DNA of 11,862 bases from contig JACMOG010000613.1 in the NCBI GenBank assembly GCA_014378125.1, positions 1 through 11,862 of the forward strand, given 5' to 3'. Shown piece by piece: positions 4,201-11,862 of the stretch. Below the pieces are notes generated by a model. The model did not search any database. It saw only the letters and a program-made list of their open reading frames with translations, and was not told the DNA's origin. The stretch is from Vitreoscilla sp. (GTDB taxonomy: Bacteria; Pseudomonadota; Gammaproteobacteria; Burkholderiales; Burkholderiaceae). The first letter of the stretch is position 1. Every line of letters begins with the position of its first letter. Position numbers and translations under genes: made by a program.

Positions 4201-4459
4201 CCGCAGCGTGGACGGCGGCGTCACGTGGACGGATGCGACCTGGGCCTTCCCGTATTCGGTCTCCGGCATCGCCTTCAGCAGCGCCACCACCGGCGTGGCG
4301 GTGGGCAACAGCCTGGTCATGCGCACATCGGACGGCGGCGCCACCTGGAACAACGACTGGCCCATCGTCGACGGCTACGTCGCTGGCGTCGCCATCAGCC
4401 AGGGCAAGGCCGTGGCTGTCGGCTACTACGGCCTGATCATGCGGTCCGACGCGCTCTGA
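1226..4459 (+). CDS. Lipoprotein with five Ig-like domains and a 14-blade YCF48/BNR-type propeller
   Basis: A 1077-residue envelope protein of unknown function. Residues 1-36 form a lipoprotein signal: a hydrophobic run (WLALALCALVAAC), a lipobox ending at Cys36, then six Gly and a Ser/Pro linker. Five Ig-like repeats follow at about 49-137, 144-232, 236-325, 330-420 and 422-505. They share features such as TAQP, YQWQ, and DDG..FR.. .SN near the end. The fifth holds Cys486 and Cys500, the only cysteines seen after the lipid anchor, so a disulfide is likely. From Trp508 to the end run 14 blades marked by G-x-I-x-R-S-x-D-G-G-x-T-W; the motif glycine position falls at 538, 580, 624, 666, 706, 747 and 789, then every 40 residues from 829 to 1069. 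YCF48/HCF136 and BNR/sortilin-type propellers share this motif. It may bind protein or glycan at the surface; no catalytic residues are evident. The start is set by AGGGAGG 5 bases upstream. It is convergent with the sugar operon. Confidence 0.9.
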   Translation: MSSDSSRTAACGADARLFRSVTLWLALALCALVAACGGGGGGSSPPPAVTITAQPTDVHVTAGASASFTVMASGSVTYQWQRLQSGSWSDIPGATGPTLALGTVADADNAAQFRVNVASTGNAGNSVRSSVVTLTVDPLVVAPVIVAAPADTSAIEGFAAYFSVTATGTAPSIQWQRSADGTTWVDISGATSATLALPTTLSDDGTRVRVRVSNSMGTVFSAAVQLHVTPTPQSPRFTTQPASASVTAGQAATFNAVATGTPAPDLQWMTSTDGGAHWTPIAGAASGSYTTPATVLSDDGHWFRADASNATTTTSDPARLTVTAAPVAPTITAQPADVTVQFQQTLSVAATGTPTPRYQWQVSVDNGATFTNINNAVYATLTLSPQSLAEDGRQFRVVVSNSAGSITSRAATMSVVAYPQAQVTQRQAVRIPGTKPLHLTATATGGHLHYVWQTHHVGGLRQDVAGDDTLAYDLPVDALADTDGVCVTATNTAGSSIPSCTDIRTLRWTAIAPLPTSETLHATSWLDADTVLAGGGVGTILRSTDRGVTWTQVFDDGDAGWQLRAFGTHAGVTLAVGEDGMIARSTNGGIDWTDIHLLDNHAATGLAFNAAGVAIETSVSGGFGRVYSSPDLGVTWQEVSLPTGVESLYALAINHADVALAVGVHGGVVRSTDGGATWTAAHTGAANLFALAFASDTVAVAAGDSGTIWRSPDAGQTWTAVNSGTLNGITDIRFSSATVGIASMLHGGTLRTTDGGQTWSPVTSDGAHQYFAASFSPDGNTAVTVGEQGHIQRSTDGGLNFVDAVPANAPNLAAVAFNGAGTGLAAGDAGILRTLDGGSTWTVVAVSGAPLSSVAFATSTIAVAGGANGTLLRSTNGGANWSALAPASSAQVNAIAFASNGVALAGTASGLLRSTDSGATWASVASITGTFTGVTFADTNIAVAVTVDGAIYRSTNGGAAWTLATTRSFRIHAVAAASATVLEVGGEGGFISRSVDGGVTWTDATWAFPYSVSGIAFSSATTGVAVGNSLVMRTSDGGATWNNDWPIVDGYVAGVAISQGKAVAVGYYGLIMRSDAL

Positions 4460-4460
4460 C

Positions 4461-4520
4461 CGGTGTCAGGTCTTGCGGAACGCAAGACCTGACACCGCAA
4501 GAATCAAGACCTGACACCCG
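4461..4520. repeat. REP-like palindromic element, likely bidirectional terminator
   Basis: A perfect 17-bp inverted repeat (4461-4477 and 4481-4497; arms CGGTGTCAGGTCTTGCG and its complement) closes on a 3-base GAA loop. Seven bases on, a further partial copy of the right arm, CAAGACCTGACACC, occurs at 4505-4518. The hairpin begins two bases after the stop of the plus-strand lipoprotein gene and ends before the stop of the minus-strand regulator. It can therefore fold in both transcripts and would serve as a shared terminator or 3' stabiliser, although no T-tract adjoins it. Paired arms plus an extra copy between convergent genes is the usual setting of REP/BIME elements mobilised by RAYT-type transposases; no transposase is in the window. 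The third copy supplies the last codons and stop of the regulator gene. Confidence 0.7.
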
Positions 4521-5790
4521 TTGAATCGGCGCGCGCCAGGCTCGCCACCAGTTCCAGCTTGAAATCGATCAGGCCGCCGAAGCCGAGGGTGCGGCAGAAG
4601 CGGCTCACCTGCGACGGGCTGACGCCGGCGGAGGCGGCGATCGTGGAGATCGATTCGGTCGTCACGAAGGCGGGGTCGTCCAGCAGCACGTCCGCCACGC
4701 GCTGGTTGGACGGCGTGAGCTGGGCGTAGCGGTCGCCCACGCGGTCGACCAGGGTGCGCGTGGCGTCCAGCGACAGCGCGCGCATGGCGTCGTCGAGCGA
4801 CGTTCGGGCGCCCTCCAGGAAACGGATGGGCGCGGCGAGCACGCCGATCGCCATCACTGCCGCGGGCCCCGCCGCCTCGGCGCGCACGGCCTGCAGCCGG
4901 CGCGCCAGCGGGTAGTCGGCCAGCGCAGGCGCCAGCAGCGTGGCCGCGGGCCCGGCGAGCAGCACGCGGCGCACGCCCTCGAACGACAGCAGCGCGCACA
5001 GCTGGGCGATGGCCGCGCAGATCACGGCGCAGGCGCGGCGCGCGCGGGCGTCACGCGACGCGAGCGAGACGACGCCCTCGGCCGGCAGCGGGCAGGCGCT
5101 GTCGTAGTCGATGCCCGCGAGCGCCTCGAATGCGCGCGCGATACCGTCGGTACCCAGCAGGTTGCCGAACACCGGCGCCAGGCCCCGGGCGCGCATCGAC
5201 GCCACCACGATCAGCTCGTCCTCGCCGACCGGCGCGAACGGATGGCTCATCAGCGCCAGCGGCAGACGCGCCACCGGCTGGCCCACCGGCGCCAGCAGCG
5301 CGCCGTGCGTGTCGGAGCCCAGGCGGCACACCGCGGTCGACACGCCCGCGTGCAGGATCGTCGGCCCCGGCGCCAGCGCCCACCGCACCTCGCTGTTGGC
5401 CGGCGCGCCCGTCACCAGCGACAGCGCCTCGCGCTCGTCGATCACGCGCAACGTGCGCAGGCCCAGCTCGAGCCGCAGCGTCTCGACGCCGATGCTGCGC
5501 GCCTGGCCGCGCGGCAGGAAGCGCCCCGCGGCCACCGACCCGTCGATCACCAGCGCGCCGCCGACCGCCGACTGGCCCGCCGCCGCCAGGAACGCCTTCA
5601 GGCACGCGCCCAGCGCCACCGGCGGCGGCGCCTCGAGGCGGCGCGCGTGCGTCAGCCCGCGGTCGCTGCGCTCGATGGCCACCTCCAGCAAATGCGCGTC
5701 CAGATGCGCCAGCAGCCGCGGCCAGCGAGCCTCGCGCAGGATCGACGTGTCCGCCACCAGGCGGGCCGCCGGCGGGCGGGCGATGCTCAT
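4504..5790 (-). CDS. Degenerate glucokinase-like domain fused to RpiR-type HTH; SIS domain absent
   Basis: A 428-residue cytoplasmic protein, probably the locus regulator. Residues about 8-325 follow the layout of bacterial glucokinase (PF02685), with a start like PRLLAD and an end like FLG.S. The expected motifs are changed, however: the phosphate-binding DVGGTNAR reads DTSILREAR (14-22), the substrate-binding TNH segment reads LPRGQ (92-96), the base-containing NDF reads DER (118-120), and the GxGTGLG and GEGGH motifs are not recognisable. Kinase activity is therefore doubtful. Residues about 344-420 are a clear RpiR HTH (LTPSNQRVADVLL, then ESISTIAASAGVSPSQVSRFCRTLG). Burkholderia species carry a known glucokinase-RpiR-SIS fusion; here the SIS domain is missing and the frame ends 18 residues after IDFKL, inside the REP-like element. 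The ATG overlaps the GH97 stop (ATGA), which suggests coupled translation. Inferred role: sugar- or sugar-phosphate-responsive control of this operon. Confidence 0.8.
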   Translation of the reverse strand: MSIARPPAARLVADTSILREARWPRLLAHLDAHLLEVAIERSDRGLTHARRLEAPPPVALGACLKAFLAAAGQSAVGGALVIDGSVAAGRFLPRGQARSIGVETLRLELGLRTLRVIDEREALSLVTGAPANSEVRWALAPGPTILHAGVSTAVCRLGSDTHGALLAPVGQPVARLPLALMSHPFAPVGEDELIVVASMRARGLAPVFGNLLGTDGIARAFEALAGIDYDSACPLPAEGVVSLASRDARARRACAVICAAIAQLCALLSFEGVRRVLLAGPAATLLAPALADYPLARRLQAVRAEAAGPAAVMAIGVLAAPIRFLEGARTSLDDAMRALSLDATRTLVDRVGDRYAQLTPSNQRVADVLLDDPAFVTTESISTIAASAGVSPSQVSRFCRTLGFGGLIDFKLELVASLARADSTGVRS

Positions 5791-7877
5791 GGACGCACCA
5801 CCAACGGCGAGAGCCGGATGGCCTGGCCGCCGCCCGGCGCCAGCTTCATCACCAGCGTGTCGCCCGCGCGCACCGTGCGGCGTTCCACCACCAGGTCGAA
5901 GCGGTGCGCGTTGCGGTAGTCGGCCTGGTCGCCGTCGCGCCACATCTCGGCCAGGTAGTCGCGGCCCGCGTCGAGGAAGCCCAGCGGCAGTTGCAGCGTG
6001 CGCGCCTGGCCGTCGCCCACCGCGCCCACGTACCAGTCGTCGGAGCGGCGATCCTTGCGCGCCAGCGTGGCGTACTCGCCCACCTCGCCGCTGACCACGT
6101 GCGTCTCGGCCCAGTCGGTGGGCACCTGCTCGATGAAGCGGAACGCCTCGGGGTATTTCTCGTCGTTGGCGATCAGGTCGGCCGCCATCGCCAGCGGCGA
6201 CCAGATCACCACGAAGTTGGCCAGCTGCTTCGCCTGCGTGGAGTTGATCGGCCGACCCTTCTGGCCCACCAGGCTCAGGATGCCCGGCGTGTAGTCGAAC
6301 GGGCCGCTGAGCATGCGCGTGAACACCAGCCGGGCCTCGTGGTCGACACTGTTGATCGGGTCGCCCCAGGCGTTGTATTCCATGCCGCGGCCGCCCTCGC
6401 GCGACATCCAGTTGGGCCATGTGCGGCGCAGCCCGGTGTCCTTCACGGGCTCGTGGGTGTCGACGGCCAGGTGGTGCATCGCGGCCTCGCGCACGGCCCG
6501 CAGCTCGTGCCGCACGCCCTCCTGCGAGTCGGTGAAGCCCAAGTGCACGCCCGGGCCGTCGGCGTCGGCGAACACCGCGGTGCCACCGTCGGTGGCGTAG
6601 CCCGACTTCACCACCTCCACGCCCAGCCGCTCGTCGAGCGCGTAGGCCGCGTCCATCTGCGACTCGTAGCGCGCGATGTTGCCGCCCGTCTCGTGGTGGC
6701 CCACCAGGTGCACGCCCTTCTTCGCGGCGTAGGCGGTCACCGCCTCCAGGTCGAAGTCCGGCGCCGCATGCGTGAAGTCGAACTGCGAGCCGCTGCCGGC
6801 CCAGTCGCCGTCCCAGCCGCGGTTCCAGCCCTCCACCAGCACGCCGCGAAAGCCGTGCCGGGCCGCGAAGTCAATGTGGCGCATCGCGTTGGCCGTGGTG
6901 GCGCCGTGCGTCGGCCCGGCGCCCCACGTGCTGAGCCCGAGGTGCATCTCCCACCACACGCCGACGAACTTGGACGGATGCAGCCACCCCACGTCGCCCA
7001 GCCGGTTGGGCTCGTTGAGATTCAGCACCAGGTCGGACTCGTAGAGCCCGCCCGCGGTGTCGGCCACCACCAGCGTGCGCCAGGGCGTGGTGAACGCGCC
7101 GCGGCGCACCACGGCCGGCCCCGTCGCCGAAGGCGCGAGCTGCGCGCGCAGCACCTGGCCGTCGGTCTTGCGCACCCACATCGACGCGTAGTCCACCAGG
7201 GCCGCCTCGTGCAACGCCAGGTGCAGGCCGGCGGCGGTGCGCAAGGTGAGCGGCGTGTTGGCCAGGCCCACCTCGGCCAGCGGCGTCTTGCGGATCGCGT
7301 ATTCGAGCGCGGCCTGTTCGCCCCCGGGCTGCCACCACGCCGTGGCGGCCGGAACCACCGCGAACTCGGTCAGCTCGTCGGTGATGCGCGCCTCGGGCAG
7401 CTGCGGCTGGTCGGGAAACTCGTAGCGAAAGCCCACGCCGTCGTCGAACACGCGAAAGACGATGTCCAGGCGGCGGTCGGCCAGCGACTTCTGCACGACG
7501 CTGACCCGCATCTCGCGATAGTGGTTGCGCACGAAGCGGCGCTCGCCCCAAGGCTGCTCCCAGGTGTCGTCGTGTGCGCTCTCCGTGCGTTCACGCAGGC
7601 TGAAGCCGCCGTCCATCTGCGGCGCGTTGGCCAGCAGGAAGCCGAGGCGCGCGGGCGCGATCAAGGGCGTGCCGCGGCGATCGACCCGCCCCGCCAGGCG
7701 GCCGCCGCCGGCGAGCTGCACCGACGCCACCAGCGAGCCGTCGGGCGAGGCCACGCTGCCCAGCAGGTCGTCGGCCCGCGCCGCAGGGGCGCACAGCGAC
7801 GCGGCCAGGGCCAGGGCCAGTGCCAGGGCCAGGCCCGGCGTCCCCAGGCGGCCGCGCAGAATCGGGAAGAAGGTCAT
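5787..7877 (-). CDS. Secreted GH97 alpha-glucosidase (SusB-like)
   Basis: A 696-residue periplasmic glycoside hydrolase of family 97, which hydrolyses alpha-glucosidic bonds from the non-reducing end of maltooligosaccharides. A Sec signal peptide occupies 1-35 (a Leu/Ala run, then PAARA before DD). An N-terminal beta-sandwich follows to about residue 290 and a TIM barrel from about 291 (WLHPSKFVGVWWEMH). A C-terminal beta domain begins at about 600. The glutamates typical of the inverting, Ca-dependent SusB branch are present: Glu396 in VGHHETGG, Glu476 in DTHEPVKDTG and Glu500 in GGRGMEYN. The last two are 24 apart, as in SusB (508/532), whereas the 396-476 interval is about 11 residues longer than its SusB counterpart. 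The retaining alpha-galactosidase branch uses an Asp nucleophile instead. The start is 5 bases after the halogenase stop with little Shine-Dalgarno, so coupling is likely. A longer frame running back to 8687 is rejected because it buries the signal peptide. Confidence 0.93.
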   Translation of the reverse strand: MTFFPILRGRLGTPGLALALALALAASLCAPAARADDLLGSVASPDGSLVASVQLAGGGRLAGRVDRRGTPLIAPARLGFLLANAPQMDGGFSLRERTESAHDDTWEQPWGERRFVRNHYREMRVSVVQKSLADRRLDIVFRVFDDGVGFRYEFPDQPQLPEARITDELTEFAVVPAATAWWQPGGEQAALEYAIRKTPLAEVGLANTPLTLRTAAGLHLALHEAALVDYASMWVRKTDGQVLRAQLAPSATGPAVVRRGAFTTPWRTLVVADTAGGLYESDLVLNLNEPNRLGDVGWLHPSKFVGVWWEMHLGLSTWGAGPTHGATTANAMRHIDFAARHGFRGVLVEGWNRGWDGDWAGSGSQFDFTHAAPDFDLEAVTAYAAKKGVHLVGHHETGGNIARYESQMDAAYALDERLGVEVVKSGYATDGGTAVFADADGPGVHLGFTDSQEGVRHELRAVREAAMHHLAVDTHEPVKDTGLRRTWPNWMSREGGRGMEYNAWGDPINSVDHEARLVFTRMLSGPFDYTPGILSLVGQKGRPINSTQAKQLANFVVIWSPLAMAADLIANDEKYPEAFRFIEQVPTDWAETHVVSGEVGEYATLARKDRRSDDWYVGAVGDGQARTLQLPLGFLDAGRDYLAEMWRDGDQADYRNAHRFDLVVERRTVRAGDTLVMKLAPGGGQAIRLSPLVVRP
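7803..7832. repeat. Hexanucleotide repeat in the GH97 signal-peptide region
   Basis: Five tandem copies of GGCCAG on the plus strand, the fourth reading TGCCAG. On the coding strand they encode alternating Leu-Ala in the hydrophobic core of the GH97 signal peptide (residues 16-25). Loss or gain of a unit stays in frame, so slippage would only alter signal-peptide length. Confidence 0.75.
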
Positions 7878-7882
7878 GTCGT

Positions 7883-9415
7883 TCAGCCGCGCGGCGCGGC
7901 GCAATGGGCGGCCACGTAGCGGGCGTGCGACGGCATCTGCTCCACGCAGTTGGCCACCACCGACGCGACGTCGGCGAGATAGCCGGCCACGTCGGCCTCG
8001 TCCAGGGCGTCGGCGACGGGATGGTGGGCGCGCGGCTCGACGCGATGGCCCACGAGCACCTGCAGCCAACCCACCTCGGCGAACAGCTCGTTGTCGGTGC
8101 GCACGATGCGCCCGGCCGATCGCCACAGGTCGAGCTTGGCCTGCAGGGTGTCGGGCACCTGCATCGTGCGCACGTGGTTCCAGAACGACGAGTCGTCGCG
8201 CTCGGTGGAGTGGTAGTGCAGGATCAGGAAGTCGCGGATGCGTTCGTTCTCGAAGCGGCACTGGCGGTTGAACTCGTCGACGTCGGTAGCGCGGAACTCG
8301 TGGTCGGGGAAGAACGCGATCAGGCGCGCGATCGTGGCCTGGATCAGGTGGATCGAGGTGGACTCCAGCGGCTCGGCGAAACCCGACGCCAGGCCGATGG
8401 CCACCACGTTGCGGTTCCACGTCTTCGACCGCTGGCCCGACGTGAAGCGCAGCGTGCGCGGGTCGGCCGGCGGCCGGCCATCGAGGTTGTCCATCAGGAG
8501 GGCGGTGGCCTCGTCGTCGCCCATGTGCGCGCTGGAATACACGTGGCCGTTGCCGGTGCGGTGCTGCAGGCCGATGCGCCACTGCCAGCCCGCCTTGCGC
8601 GCGGTGGCCACGGTGAAGGGCGGCAGCTGGCCGGTGCTCTCGCACGGCACCACCACCGCGCGGTCGCACGGCAGCCACTGCGACCACGACTCGAAGCCGG
8701 TGTGCAGCGTCTCCTCGATGAGCAGGCCGCGCAGCCCGGAGCAGTCGACGAACGGGTCGCCCTCGATGCGCTCGCCGTCGGCCAGCCGGATGGCCTGCAC
8801 GAAGCCGTCGCCGGGCCGCAGCTCCACGTCCACCACCTTGCCCTCGGTGCGCCGCACGCCGGACTGCTCGGCCCGCTTGCGCAGGTAGCGCGCGTAGAGC
8901 CCGGCGTCGATGTGGAACGCGTGCACGATGTCGGCCAGCGGCGAGTTGGGCGACGAACGGTCGGCCCGCATGAAGCGGTGCGCGCGCGCCGCCATGCGGT
9001 TGATGGAATACGCCTCGAGGTCGCGCGCCTTGCCCAGCTGGTGCATGCGCAGCCAGTACTGGTGGAAGTTGAGCGTGGCCAGGTTGCGGCCGATGGGGCC
9101 GAAGCCGTGCATGTAGCGGTCGCCGACACGGGCCCAGTCGCGCAGCTCGATGCCCAGCTTGAACGTGGCCTTCGTCTCGCGCATGAACTCGTCCTCGTCG
9201 ATGCCGAGGAGCGCGTTGAACAGCCGAAGCGCGGGGATGGTGGACTCGCCCACGCCGATGGTGCCGATGTCGTCGGACTCGACCAGCCGGATGTCCACCG
9301 ACTTGCCGAGCACGTGGCCCAGCGCCGCCGCGGCCATCCAGCCGGCGGTGCCGCCGCCCACGATCACGAGGCGCCTGAGGTTGTCCTGGTTCATGTCTGC
9401 CGTGTTCCGGTTCAT
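7883..9415 (-). CDS. Flavin-dependent tryptophan-halogenase-like protein
   Basis: A 510-residue FAD protein of the tryptophan halogenase family (PF04820). The family uses FADH2, O2 and halide to make hypohalous acid, which a lysine relays to an aromatic substrate. Visible motifs are the dinucleotide-binding VIVGGGTAGWMAA (17-29), GVGESTIP (54-61), Lys86 in ATFKLGIEL, which matches the catalytic Lys79 of PrnA, and Glu351 in AEPLESTSIHL, which matches PrnA Glu346. The family's WxWxIP signature reads WQWRIG (277-282), with Gly in place of Pro. No signal peptide is seen. Genes of this kind recur beside TonB receptors in proteobacterial sugar loci, and some members (for example BrvH) act on free indole, but the physiological role there is unknown. 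The first ATG (9415) overlaps the GH13 stop as ATGA; Met8 (9394) is an alternative start, and neither has a strong ribosome-binding site. It is sandwiched between two glycosidase genes. Confidence 0.9.
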   Translation of the reverse strand: MNRNTADMNQDNLRRLVIVGGGTAGWMAAAALGHVLGKSVDIRLVESDDIGTIGVGESTIPALRLFNALLGIDEDEFMRETKATFKLGIELRDWARVGDRYMHGFGPIGRNLATLNFHQYWLRMHQLGKARDLEAYSINRMAARAHRFMRADRSSPNSPLADIVHAFHIDAGLYARYLRKRAEQSGVRRTEGKVVDVELRPGDGFVQAIRLADGERIEGDPFVDCSGLRGLLIEETLHTGFESWSQWLPCDRAVVVPCESTGQLPPFTVATARKAGWQWRIGLQHRTGNGHVYSSAHMGDDEATALLMDNLDGRPPADPRTLRFTSGQRSKTWNRNVVAIGLASGFAEPLESTSIHLIQATIARLIAFFPDHEFRATDVDEFNRQCRFENERIRDFLILHYHSTERDDSSFWNHVRTMQVPDTLQAKLDLWRSAGRIVRTDNELFAEVGWLQVLVGHRVEPRAHHPVADALDEADVAGYLADVASVVANCVEQMPSHARYVAAHCAAPRG

Positions 9416-10791
9416 CGAACGAATACGCGCCAGGCCCAGGGCGCCAACGTCAACGGAGTGTCGTCGTCGACGCGCACGGGCTCGCCGCTGTCGAGGTCAT
9501 GGTATTGCCCCGGCGCCAGGTCGTCCTTCAGGCGAACCCGTACCGGCTGGGCCGACAGGTTGAACACCGCCAGCACCTTGTCGCGCTCGTTGGCGCGCAC
9601 GAACGAGAACACCTGCTGCGGCGCCGTGTTGGGCACCGGCTCCATCGTGGCGCCGTACTGCCCGTTCCACAGCGCCGTGTTGCGATGCTTCAGCGCCAGC
9701 AGCTTCGTGTAGAGCGCCGCGTAGGGCGACGCCTTCCACTCGATCGGGTCGCGCTCGAAGAACTTCAGGCGCCGCGTGTTGCCGGCCTCCTGGCCGTTGT
9801 AGACCAGCGGCATGCCCTCGCTGACGAACGAGAACACGATGGCGGCGTCGGTGGCCGGCCCGAACACCTCGAACTCGGTGCCCTCCCACGCGTTCTTGTC
9901 GTGGTTGGTGGTGTACATCATGCGGTACGCCTGCTTCGGGTAGAACTTGCGGTTCCACGCGTAGTAGGTGTTGATGGCGCCGATGTCGCCGCGGCCGGCC
10001 ACGAGCGCGCGCATCGAGTCCCACCACGTCCACGCGTAGGTGGCGTCGAAGGCGGCCTCGTGCAGGTCGCGGCCTTCCCACTCGCCCAGCATGAACACGG
10101 GCTTGATGGCGGCCAGGCGGCAGCGCGCGTCCTCCCAGAACTTCAGCGGCACCAGGCCGGCGGCGTCCACGCGGTAGCCGTCGATGTCGGCGGTGCGCAC
10201 CCAGTACGCCAGCGCGTCCTGCATGTAGCGCTGCAGGCCGGGCTGCGCGTAGTCGAGGTCGATGATGTCGTCCCAGTCGTACCAGGGCGTCGGGCGGAAG
10301 TGGCCCTTGCGGTCGTGGTCGTACCACTCGGGATGGCTGGCCACCAGCACGTTGTCCCACGACGTGTGGTTGCCCACCCAATCGAGGATCACGTGCAGGC
10401 CCAGCCGGTGCGCCTCGGCCACGAAGCGCTTCAGGTCGTCCAGCGTGCCGTACTCGGGGTTGACGGCCATGAAGTCGCGGATGGCGTAGGGGCTGCCCAG
10501 CGGCCCCTTGCGGTTCTTCTCGCCGATGGGATGGATGGGCATCAGCCACAGGATGTCCACGCCCAGCGCCTTCAGGCGCGGCAGCTGCGCCTGCGCCGCG
10601 GCGAAGGTGCCCTGCGGCGTGAACTGGCGCAGGTTGATCTCGTAGAGGCTGGCGTTGCGGGTCCAGTCGGGATGGTCGACCTCGTAGCGGGGCGCGGTGC
10701 CGCAGGTGGGCGCCGCGAGCAGGGGCGGCGTGCAGGCCAGCGCGGCCGCCAGCGGGGCGAGCAGGCGCAGGCGTCGAAGAAATTGGATCAC
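9412..10791 (-). CDS. Secreted GH13 alpha-amylase-family enzyme
   Basis: A 459-residue exported glycoside hydrolase that acts on alpha-1,4-glucans such as starch or maltodextrin, probably by the retaining mechanism. Residues 1-27 form a signal peptide (FLRRLRLLAPLAAALA). A cysteine at 20 or 30 could be a lipid site, but neither fits a strict lipobox. The (beta/alpha)8 barrel carries the GH13 regions: DWVGNH (137-142), DGYRVDA with nucleophile Asp209, LGEWEG with acid/base Glu237, and TTNHDKN with Asp298. A short beta-sandwich domain C (about 390-459) closes the protein. The length is typical of a compact amylase without extra binding modules. Translation starts at GTG; no ATG or better start lies upstream in frame, and no clear Shine-Dalgarno is present. 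It follows the TonB-receptor gene by 85 bases and overlaps the halogenase start by 4. The exact specificity (amylase, neopullulanase or maltogenic) cannot be read from the sequence. Confidence 0.93.
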   Translation of the reverse strand: MIQFLRRLRLLAPLAAALACTPPLLAAPTCGTAPRYEVDHPDWTRNASLYEINLRQFTPQGTFAAAQAQLPRLKALGVDILWLMPIHPIGEKNRKGPLGSPYAIRDFMAVNPEYGTLDDLKRFVAEAHRLGLHVILDWVGNHTSWDNVLVASHPEWYDHDRKGHFRPTPWYDWDDIIDLDYAQPGLQRYMQDALAYWVRTADIDGYRVDAAGLVPLKFWEDARCRLAAIKPVFMLGEWEGRDLHEAAFDATYAWTWWDSMRALVAGRGDIGAINTYYAWNRKFYPKQAYRMMYTTNHDKNAWEGTEFEVFGPATDAAIVFSFVSEGMPLVYNGQEAGNTRRLKFFERDPIEWKASPYAALYTKLLALKHRNTALWNGQYGATMEPVPNTAPQQVFSFVRANERDKVLAVFNLSAQPVRVRLKDDLAPGQYHDLDSGEPVRVDDDTPLTLAPWAWRVFVR

Positions 10792-10876: not shown

Positions 10877-11862
10877 TCAGAACTTGTAGGTGATGCCCGC
10901 GGTATACGTCTTGCCGTACTTCACCGAGTTCGTGACGATGTTCGGATCGGACGTGTATTCCTGGAACGGCGCGTTGGTGAGGTTGTGCGCCTGGAACAGC
11001 CCCGACAGCCCCTTGAGCCAGCCGTCCTGGAACTCGTAGGACACCTGCAGGTCGCTGATGGTTTCCGTCTTGATGAAGGTGAACTGCGAGTCGGCGCGGT
11101 AGTCCAGGATCTGGCCGATGAAGGCCGAGCGCTTGTGCGCCGCCCAAGCCACCTGCAGGCCGTGCGCCTCGTAGTACACGCGGATGCTGCCCACGTCCTT
11201 CGACAGGCCCGGCAGGCCGATCGTCGAGACGCTGTCCTTGAACACCGGCCCGTTCTCGGGCGTGACGAAGCCGCTGGTGGGCAGCTTCACCGAGCTTTGC
11301 GACACCGACCAGGCCGCCGCGATGCCGAAGCCGTCCAGCGGCCTGGCGATGAGCGCGAACGGCAGGTTGACCGACAGCTCGAACCCGTGCAGGCTGCCGC
11401 CGGCACCGTTGGTGGGCTGGGTGAGGAAGCCGATGGTGGAACCGGCGTAGGGGCCCGTGGTGGGCAGCGGCGTGGTGGCGCTGGTGTAGGGCGCGAAGTC
11501 GAACACCCGCGGCGCGTTGATGATGTAGTTGTCCAGCTTCTTGTAGAACACCGCGGCGCTCACGTAGCCGTGGTTGCCGAAGTACTTCTCGTAGGACACG
11601 TCCACCGATCGCGCCGCGTAGGGCTTCAGCTTCGGGTTGCCGGCGTTGCCGGTGAGCGCGGGCTGCTGTGCCGTCGCGGACTGGACCTGGAAGTCGAGGC
11701 TGTCCTTCAGGTTGTCGAGGTCGGGCCGCGAGATCTGCTTGCCCGCGCCGAGGCGCAGCTTCTGGTCGTGACCGAGGTCGAACGCGAGGTTCAGGTTGGG
11801 CAGCCAGTCGTTGTAGCTGGTGCCGTCGGAACGCACTACGTACGCGCAGGTGGACACCTCGG
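10877..11862 (-). CDS. TonB-dependent outer-membrane receptor, C-terminal part
   Basis: The last ~328 residues of a TonB-dependent receptor; the gene runs off the window edge and the GTG near 11857 is an internal Val codon, not a start. The fragment shows the alternating aromatic/polar strands of the 22-strand barrel (for example VDVSYEKYFGNHGYVSAAVFYKKLDNYI), the FQAHNLTNAPFQEY segment near the end, and a terminal Phe after TAGITYK, as expected for BAM recognition. Wording such as QISRPDLDNLKDSLDF and SLHGFELSVNLPF is typical of the TonB-receptor subfamily common in Xanthomonas and Caulobacter (TIGR01782 type), which includes the maltodextrin receptor MalA of Caulobacter. The plug, TonB box and signal peptide are outside the window. 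Position at the head of an amylase/glucosidase operon suggests a maltooligosaccharide substrate. No SusD-like partner follows, which fits the proteobacterial rather than Bacteroidetes arrangement. Confidence 0.93.
   Translation of the reverse strand, partial: EVSTCAYVVRSDGTSYNDWLPNLNLAFDLGHDQKLRLGAGKQISRPDLDNLKDSLDFQVQSATAQQPALTGNAGNPKLKPYAARSVDVSYEKYFGNHGYVSAAVFYKKLDNYIINAPRVFDFAPYTSATTPLPTTGPYAGSTIGFLTQPTNGAGGSLHGFELSVNLPFALIARPLDGFGIAAAWSVSQSSVKLPTSGFVTPENGPVFKDSVSTIGLPGLSKDVGSIRVYYEAHGLQVAWAAHKRSAFIGQILDYRADSQFTFIKTETISDLQVSYEFQDGWLKGLSGLFQAHNLTNAPFQEYTSDPNIVTNSVKYGKTYTAGITYKF

Follow-up and report, generated by a model that had tools for sequence, protein, structure and literature searches.

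A putative regulator with a degenerate glucokinase-like domain and an RpiR-type DNA-binding domain, encoded by the terminal gene of an alpha-glucan operon

Introduction

The last gene of an alpha-glucan operon from Vitreoscilla sp. encodes a protein that resembles glucokinase (Glk) through most of its length and a transcriptional regulator at its C-terminus, and so raises the question of what a kinase fold might do in a regulator once its catalytic residues are gone. We have examined the domains, motifs, relatives and gene neighbourhood of this protein in the window, by which we mean the whole 11,862-nt stretch of DNA that was analysed. A first-pass annotation, made from the sequence alone, had proposed that the kinase-like half binds a ligand without catalysis; we describe below which of its claims stood.

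Results

Gene and operon

The regulator gene is an uninterrupted minus-strand frame of 428 residues, and is the last gene of an operon with the order TonB receptor, GH13 alpha-amylase, tryptophan-halogenase-family protein, GH97 glycosidase, regulator (Table 1). Its ATG shares the sequence ATGA with the GH97 stop codon, and this overlap is likely to couple translation of the 2 genes. The position at the operon end agrees with the annotation, which had called the gene coupled to a maltodextrin operon. The tryptophan-halogenase-family gene occurs in the same gene order in several Duganella loci.

Table 1. Positions of the regulator, its domains and its operon neighbours in the window
Feature	Coordinates	Strand	Evidence or remark
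Regulator CDS, 428 aa: pseudo-glucokinase domain and C-terminal RpiR-type HTH	4504..5790	-	
Pseudo-glucokinase domain, residues 18-344	4759..5739	-	
HTH_6 (RpiR) DNA-binding domain, residues 349-419	4534..4746	-	PF01418, 63.7 bits
Residues 28-39, aligned with Glk ATP-phosphate loop; GGTxAR lost	5674..5709	-	
D118-E119, fixed Asp-Glu replacing Glk Asn-Asp (catalytic base)	5434..5439	-	family alignment
Q394, in presumed recognition helix 392-401 (role inferred)	4609..4611	-	Thr in Glk-HTH-SIS fusions
ATGA overlap, GH97 stop/regulator start	5787..5790	-	
GH97 glycosidase, same operon	5787..7877	-	PF10566/PF14508/PF14509
Tryptophan-halogenase-family flavoprotein, same operon	7883..9415	-	PF04820, 2.2e-189
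GH13 alpha-amylase family enzyme, same operon	9412..10791	-	PF00128
TonB-dependent receptor, C-terminal part, cut by window end	10877..11857	-	PF00593, TIGR01782

On the opposite strand, a gene for a Ycf48/BNR-repeat protein with Ig-like domains is convergent to the regulator gene. The stretch that separates the 2 genes (4459-4521) contains a perfect 17-nt inverted repeat (4461-4477/4481-4497), and a third copy of its core, GTGTCAGGTCTTG, is found at 4505-4517 (3 copies, against 0.21 expected by chance), such that the final regulator codons consist of repeat sequence; no exact copy was present in the 133 loci examined. A 218-aa protein record (P0036) shares 99% identity with 28% of the length of the window protein and carries the precomputed SecA-type domain PF07516; it is perhaps a chimeric or mis-framed prediction.

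Domain assignment

PF01418 (HTH_6) matched the window protein well above its gathering score (63.7 against 28.3 bits) and was matched by all 32 members of the family alignment at E<=1. Of the 2 Pfam assignments proposed earlier, only this one held for the window protein, for which PF02685 (Glucokinase) gave no match at E<=1 in a profile search, although 16 of the 32 members did match it at that threshold (best 6.5e-12). The window protein matches a Glk profile, a profile-profile comparison with the Glk part of an intact fusion protein gave 6.4e-14 (a pairwise value), and the structure predicted for the kinase-like half has the Glk fold over 302 residues. The top NCBIfam match was PRK14101 (NF010701), a Glk-RpiR fusion, colinear over residues 20-419 at 82.9 bits, a score far short of the family cut-off of 920 bits.

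A profile made from the sugar isomerase-type (SIS) part of 14 intact Glk-HTH-SIS fusions found no SIS domain in the window protein, which stops 5 residues past the HTH stretch; the tail after the HTH is 0-25 aa long in 34 members, as against 202-237 aa in the 14 fusions. With SIS absent, the protein does not have the HTH-plus-SIS layout of RpiR/HexR regulators. Neither does it have the ROK layout, in which an N-terminal HTH precedes the kinase fold, its own HTH_6 being C-terminal; the family is distinct from the ROK repressors, as had been claimed.

Loss of glucokinase motifs

The motifs were compared in an alignment of 33 family members, to which 14 Glk-HTH-SIS proteins and, from the GH97 loci that had been fetched, 3 Lysobacter glucokinases were added as controls. 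None of the 33 members has an intact GGTxAR, TN, ND, GTG, EGGH, ER or AGG motif, and not one retains the Asn of TN, the ND pair, the EGGH His or the ER Glu. What survives is single letters, namely the Thr of GTG in 11/33, the first Gly of GGT in 3/33 and the Glu of EGGH in 1/33. In the 17 control rows the corresponding Asn, Asn-Asp, Glu, His and Glu are all present, while the GGT and GTG loops vary slightly. The loss is therefore common to the family and not a peculiarity of one protein. The annotation's choice of DTSILREAR as the ATP-loop counterpart was mistaken, since the alignment places that counterpart at residues 28-39. Together with the predicted fold and the HTH_6 match, these results uphold its central proposal that a glucokinase fold devoid of catalytic motifs is fused to an RpiR-type HTH, and the window protein very probably combines an inactive glucokinase fold with a functional HTH.

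At the position of the catalytic base, Asp-Glu (D118-E119) is found in 33/33 members versus Asn-Asp in 17/17 Glk and bifunctional controls. The window residues aligned with N99, E157, H160 and E187, the glucose contacts of E. coli Glk, are Asp, Ala, Ser and Gly, respectively. Glucose is therefore not an obvious ligand, and we regard glucose itself as a rather improbable one; nor is a sugar ligand implied, since most Glk sugar contacts are lost.

Eroded kin and GH97 loci

Eroded kin of the window protein were found near GH97 genes in 4 related genomes (loci L007, L126, L020 and L022). In L007 and L126 they directly follow GH97, are 345 and 344 aa long, and have ~240 residues before the HTH as against ~340. 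In L020 and L022 they lie one ORF after GH97 (this ORF is sugar transporter-like by eye only) and consist of ~120 residues of Glk remnant, then the HTH and a SIS-like tail. The kinase part has been eroded to nothing in several kin and is thus dispensable in some versions of the family. Eroded forms are also present in protein records named Pelomonas saccharophila and Roseateles asaccharophilus. The annotation's question of whether the motif losses recur beside GH97/TonB genes is answered in part by the eroded kin in 4 genomes; the window-type context is that of the window alone, the other window-type members being known as protein records.

The family alignment, used as a search profile (A1) at E<=10, gave 8 matches among the best 80 of 489 GH97 loci, and none in the other 72. 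Three were eroded kin (L007, L020, L022; L126 came from a genome search and is not among the 80), 3 were true glucokinases (L040, L055, L077) and 2 were plain RpiR-type ORFs (L025, L046). In Lysobacter antibioticus (L077, 11365-12993; L055, 11668-13029) an intact stand-alone glucokinase follows GH97 at the position of the dead kinase of the window, and in Telluria antibiotica (L025, 12113-13171, minus strand) the RpiR-type ORF has no kinase-like part and is convergent to GH97. The association with GH97 is thus not a general one. Among the 13 loci where GH97 is preceded by amylase and TonB genes of >60% identity, eroded kin were absent from 10 (mostly Duganella), and the regulator is therefore not required for the operon as such.

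GH97 was found at E<=1e-180 in 6/299 genomes, 4 of which have adjacent or near eroded kin; in the other 2 (G462, G119) no A1 match occurred within the 19 kb viewed (L125, a second GH97 locus of G001, was left out). At E<=1e-25, the eroded form was present in 4/249 relatives of G003, in every case at the 4 loci named above. All 4 genomes encode a full-length Glk-HTH-SIS fusion elsewhere (motifs were read for G001, G002 and G003), so that in those genomes the copy in the operon is additional to it. Wider searches, in which only a few candidates were scored per genome, gave for the window protein 5 matches at E<=1e-20 among 399 genomes from the family of G001, all of them frames of intact-fusion size (620-713 aa), and none at E<=1e-25 among 399 genomes from its order. 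With A1, no match at E<=1e-32 was obtained in 149 relatives of G003 or 149 of G002 (overlapping sets), and no relatives were found among 146 pattern matches on GTDB contigs and 33 on viral contigs.

Conservation and selection

The 32 aligned members are about equally conserved in the two halves of the protein, with a mean pairwise identity of 63% for the kinase-like part and 62% for the HTH; the invariant residues include E103, R106, D118, E119, D191 and E192, and residues 181-280 are among the most conserved stretches. The dN/dS of eroded kin was 0.20 for the L007/L126 pair (dS 1.4, near saturation) and 0.36 for L020/L022, with values of 0.15 and 0.29, respectively, for the GH97 genes of the same pairs. 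This conservation and the dN/dS of the eroded kin argue against a dying gene.

Probable descent from Glk-HTH-SIS fusions

We divided the proteins into types A to E, where A is the window type, A and B have no tail after the HTH and C-E have one. In an HTH tree of 57 rows (76 columns only, sampling 15 of 34 type-A rows and 28 of 43 others), the 43 rows of types A-E lie on one side of a 98/94 branch, with Glk-HTH-SIS fusions and plain RpiR proteins on the other, and types B-E form a 100/100 branch. Because A and B both lack the tail kept in C-E, while B groups with C-E, this tree suggests that there were probably 2 or more losses of SIS. The Glk-less forms are also scattered in the best tree; its well-supported branches require no more than one loss of Glk. 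An earlier tree of 63 rows was less clear, in that it did not separate 5 type-A rows from the fusions and plain RpiR proteins and placed one plain RpiR row with a long branch inside type A.

Within the presumed recognition helix, the position of Q394 is occupied by Gln in 77/77 proteins of types A-E, and by Thr in 14/14 bifunctional fusions and 8/11 plain RpiR proteins (the other 3 fall outside the pattern used). As a sequence marker, this Gln agrees with types A-E as one family. The window protein is thus likely to derive from a bifunctional, PRK14101-like Glk-HTH-SIS fusion; neither this origin nor the loss of SIS had been remarked on in the annotation.

Upstream regions

The window ends before its own TonB promoter, and we examined 10 TonB upstream regions from other loci, 3 of them with eroded kin, for possible operators. 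No HexR-type palindrome, sought as a match to a HexR consensus, was present in these 10, and perfect 7-bp inverted repeats occurred in only 2. A direct repeat that we derived from the same sequences and searched for in a slightly relaxed form, CTTCAG-N4-YCTTYA, was found 5' of the TonB gene in 11/14 loci (L007, L126, L020, L012, L001, L002, L006, L008, L023, L041 and L005; not L004, L033 or L025), and 15 of 16 plus-strand matches in those 11 loci fall upstream of the TonB gene; it was not found in the window. Genes for a response regulator and a histidine kinase lie beside the operon of relatives in divergent orientation (confirmed with Pfam in L007, similar ORFs by eye in others), and the repeat may be a candidate binding site of this pair. 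These observations suggest that the operon has another main regulator, and therefore that its main induction may be by the two-component pair, with the pseudo-kinase regulator modulating it or acting on other genes.

Discussion

The protein is probably best explained as a transcription factor that uses a non-catalytic glucokinase as its effector or dimerisation half. Its domain order, motif loss, conservation and operon position, and the existence of the family, are read from the sequences themselves, and its fold from a prediction; what we infer beyond these concerns descent from the fusion, dimerisation, ligand, targets and the sign of regulation. A copy of a Glk-HTH-SIS fusion would have been added to the end of an alpha-glucan operon (TonB/amylase/GH97), where it would have shed the SIS sensor and the kinase chemistry and altered one residue of the presumed recognition helix. 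The regulator would then be made in step with the operon, probably by translational coupling, and its HTH should bind DNA. Since SIS is absent, no part other than the Glk-like fold is a candidate for dimerisation and sensing; E. coli glucokinase is a dimer. The Glk-like fold would dimerise the regulator, and either a protein partner or a ligand bound in the remodelled cleft near D118-E119 would set DNA binding, so that alpha-glucan or glucose catabolism would be tuned.

Whether the kinase fold senses anything is less firm, and we lean towards a ligand or partner sensor rather than a mere dimer scaffold. A scaffold without any small molecule, the protein acting by an abundance tied to operon translation, would account for the loss of the ATP and most sugar-contact residues, for the shrinkage or outright absence of the domain in other lineages, and for the overlap of the regulator start with the GH97 stop. 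Yet 33/33 members carry the same acidic pair at the place of the Glk active site, which suggests a pocket in use, and the 181-280 stretch is among the most conserved parts; we therefore consider a pure scaffold somewhat unlikely. The same fixed pair might be taken for the mark of a kinase that uses Glu119 as base on another substrate, a reading that is hardly credible with the GGTxAR phosphate loop, the GTG nucleotide loop and AGG all degraded.

A different role, as antagonist or partner of the same cell's intact Glk-HTH-SIS regulator, either pairing with it through the Glk fold or competing at operators without response to ligand, is compatible with the likely shared ancestry and with the full-length fusion encoded in all 4 genomes that have eroded kin near GH97; the presumed recognition helix, which differs in 77/77 proteins, argues for other operators and makes this role quite improbable. 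That the gene is decaying without function is very improbable, for although domains are eroded to varying extents across relatives, the frame is uninterrupted, both halves average 62-63% identity over 32 aligned members, and dN/dS in the eroded kin is below 1. Wider in scope, and possible though short of probable, is the proposal of a separate, unnamed regulator family from a Glk-HexR-type fusion that entered alpha-glucan operons, changed operators through Thr to Gln and lost modules divergently (a dead glucokinase as sole sensor, a truncated SIS, or remnants of both), its Asp-Glu cleft sensing a ligand without catalysis.

Our preferred reading, a transcription factor with a non-catalytic glucokinase half, suggests that an old enzyme now forms the part of a regulator that senses or dimerises. 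If true, it would represent a second, independent route from sugar kinase to transcriptional regulator beside that of ROK, with another HTH, at the other end, and from a non-ROK glucokinase. Intact fusions, the dead-enzyme form and stripped-down forms coexist in related bacteria, and it should therefore be testable which part of an enzyme has to be retained on its way to becoming a sensor. Glk-RpiR fusions (NCBIfam PRK14101) and kinase-fold repressors (ROK) are already known. Among titles and abstracts of the open literature, we found no report of an RpiR regulator whose non-DNA half is a dead non-ROK glucokinase, or of a family losing its modules in several ways; given this scope, the evidence of novelty is weak.

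Among known systems, PRK14101 is the probable ancestor, having the same order of Glk and then RpiR HTH, but its relatives retain the Glk motifs and the SIS domain and have Thr at the position of Q394, and the window protein lacks all 3 of these features. The HexR, RccR and MurR regulators share HTH_6 with it and carry a C-terminal SIS sugar-phosphate domain, which it does not have; the closest solved sequences are those of RccR (8ju9 and 8k3b, 3.4e-10 and 3.9e-10). With E. coli Glk (PF02685) it has in common a predicted fold over 302 residues, but it has neither the catalytic nor the nucleotide motifs and bears a fused HTH. In the ROK repressors (Mlc, NagC, Lmo0178) the HTH is N-terminal and precedes the kinase fold, whereas in the window protein it is C-terminal and follows a non-ROK glucokinase.
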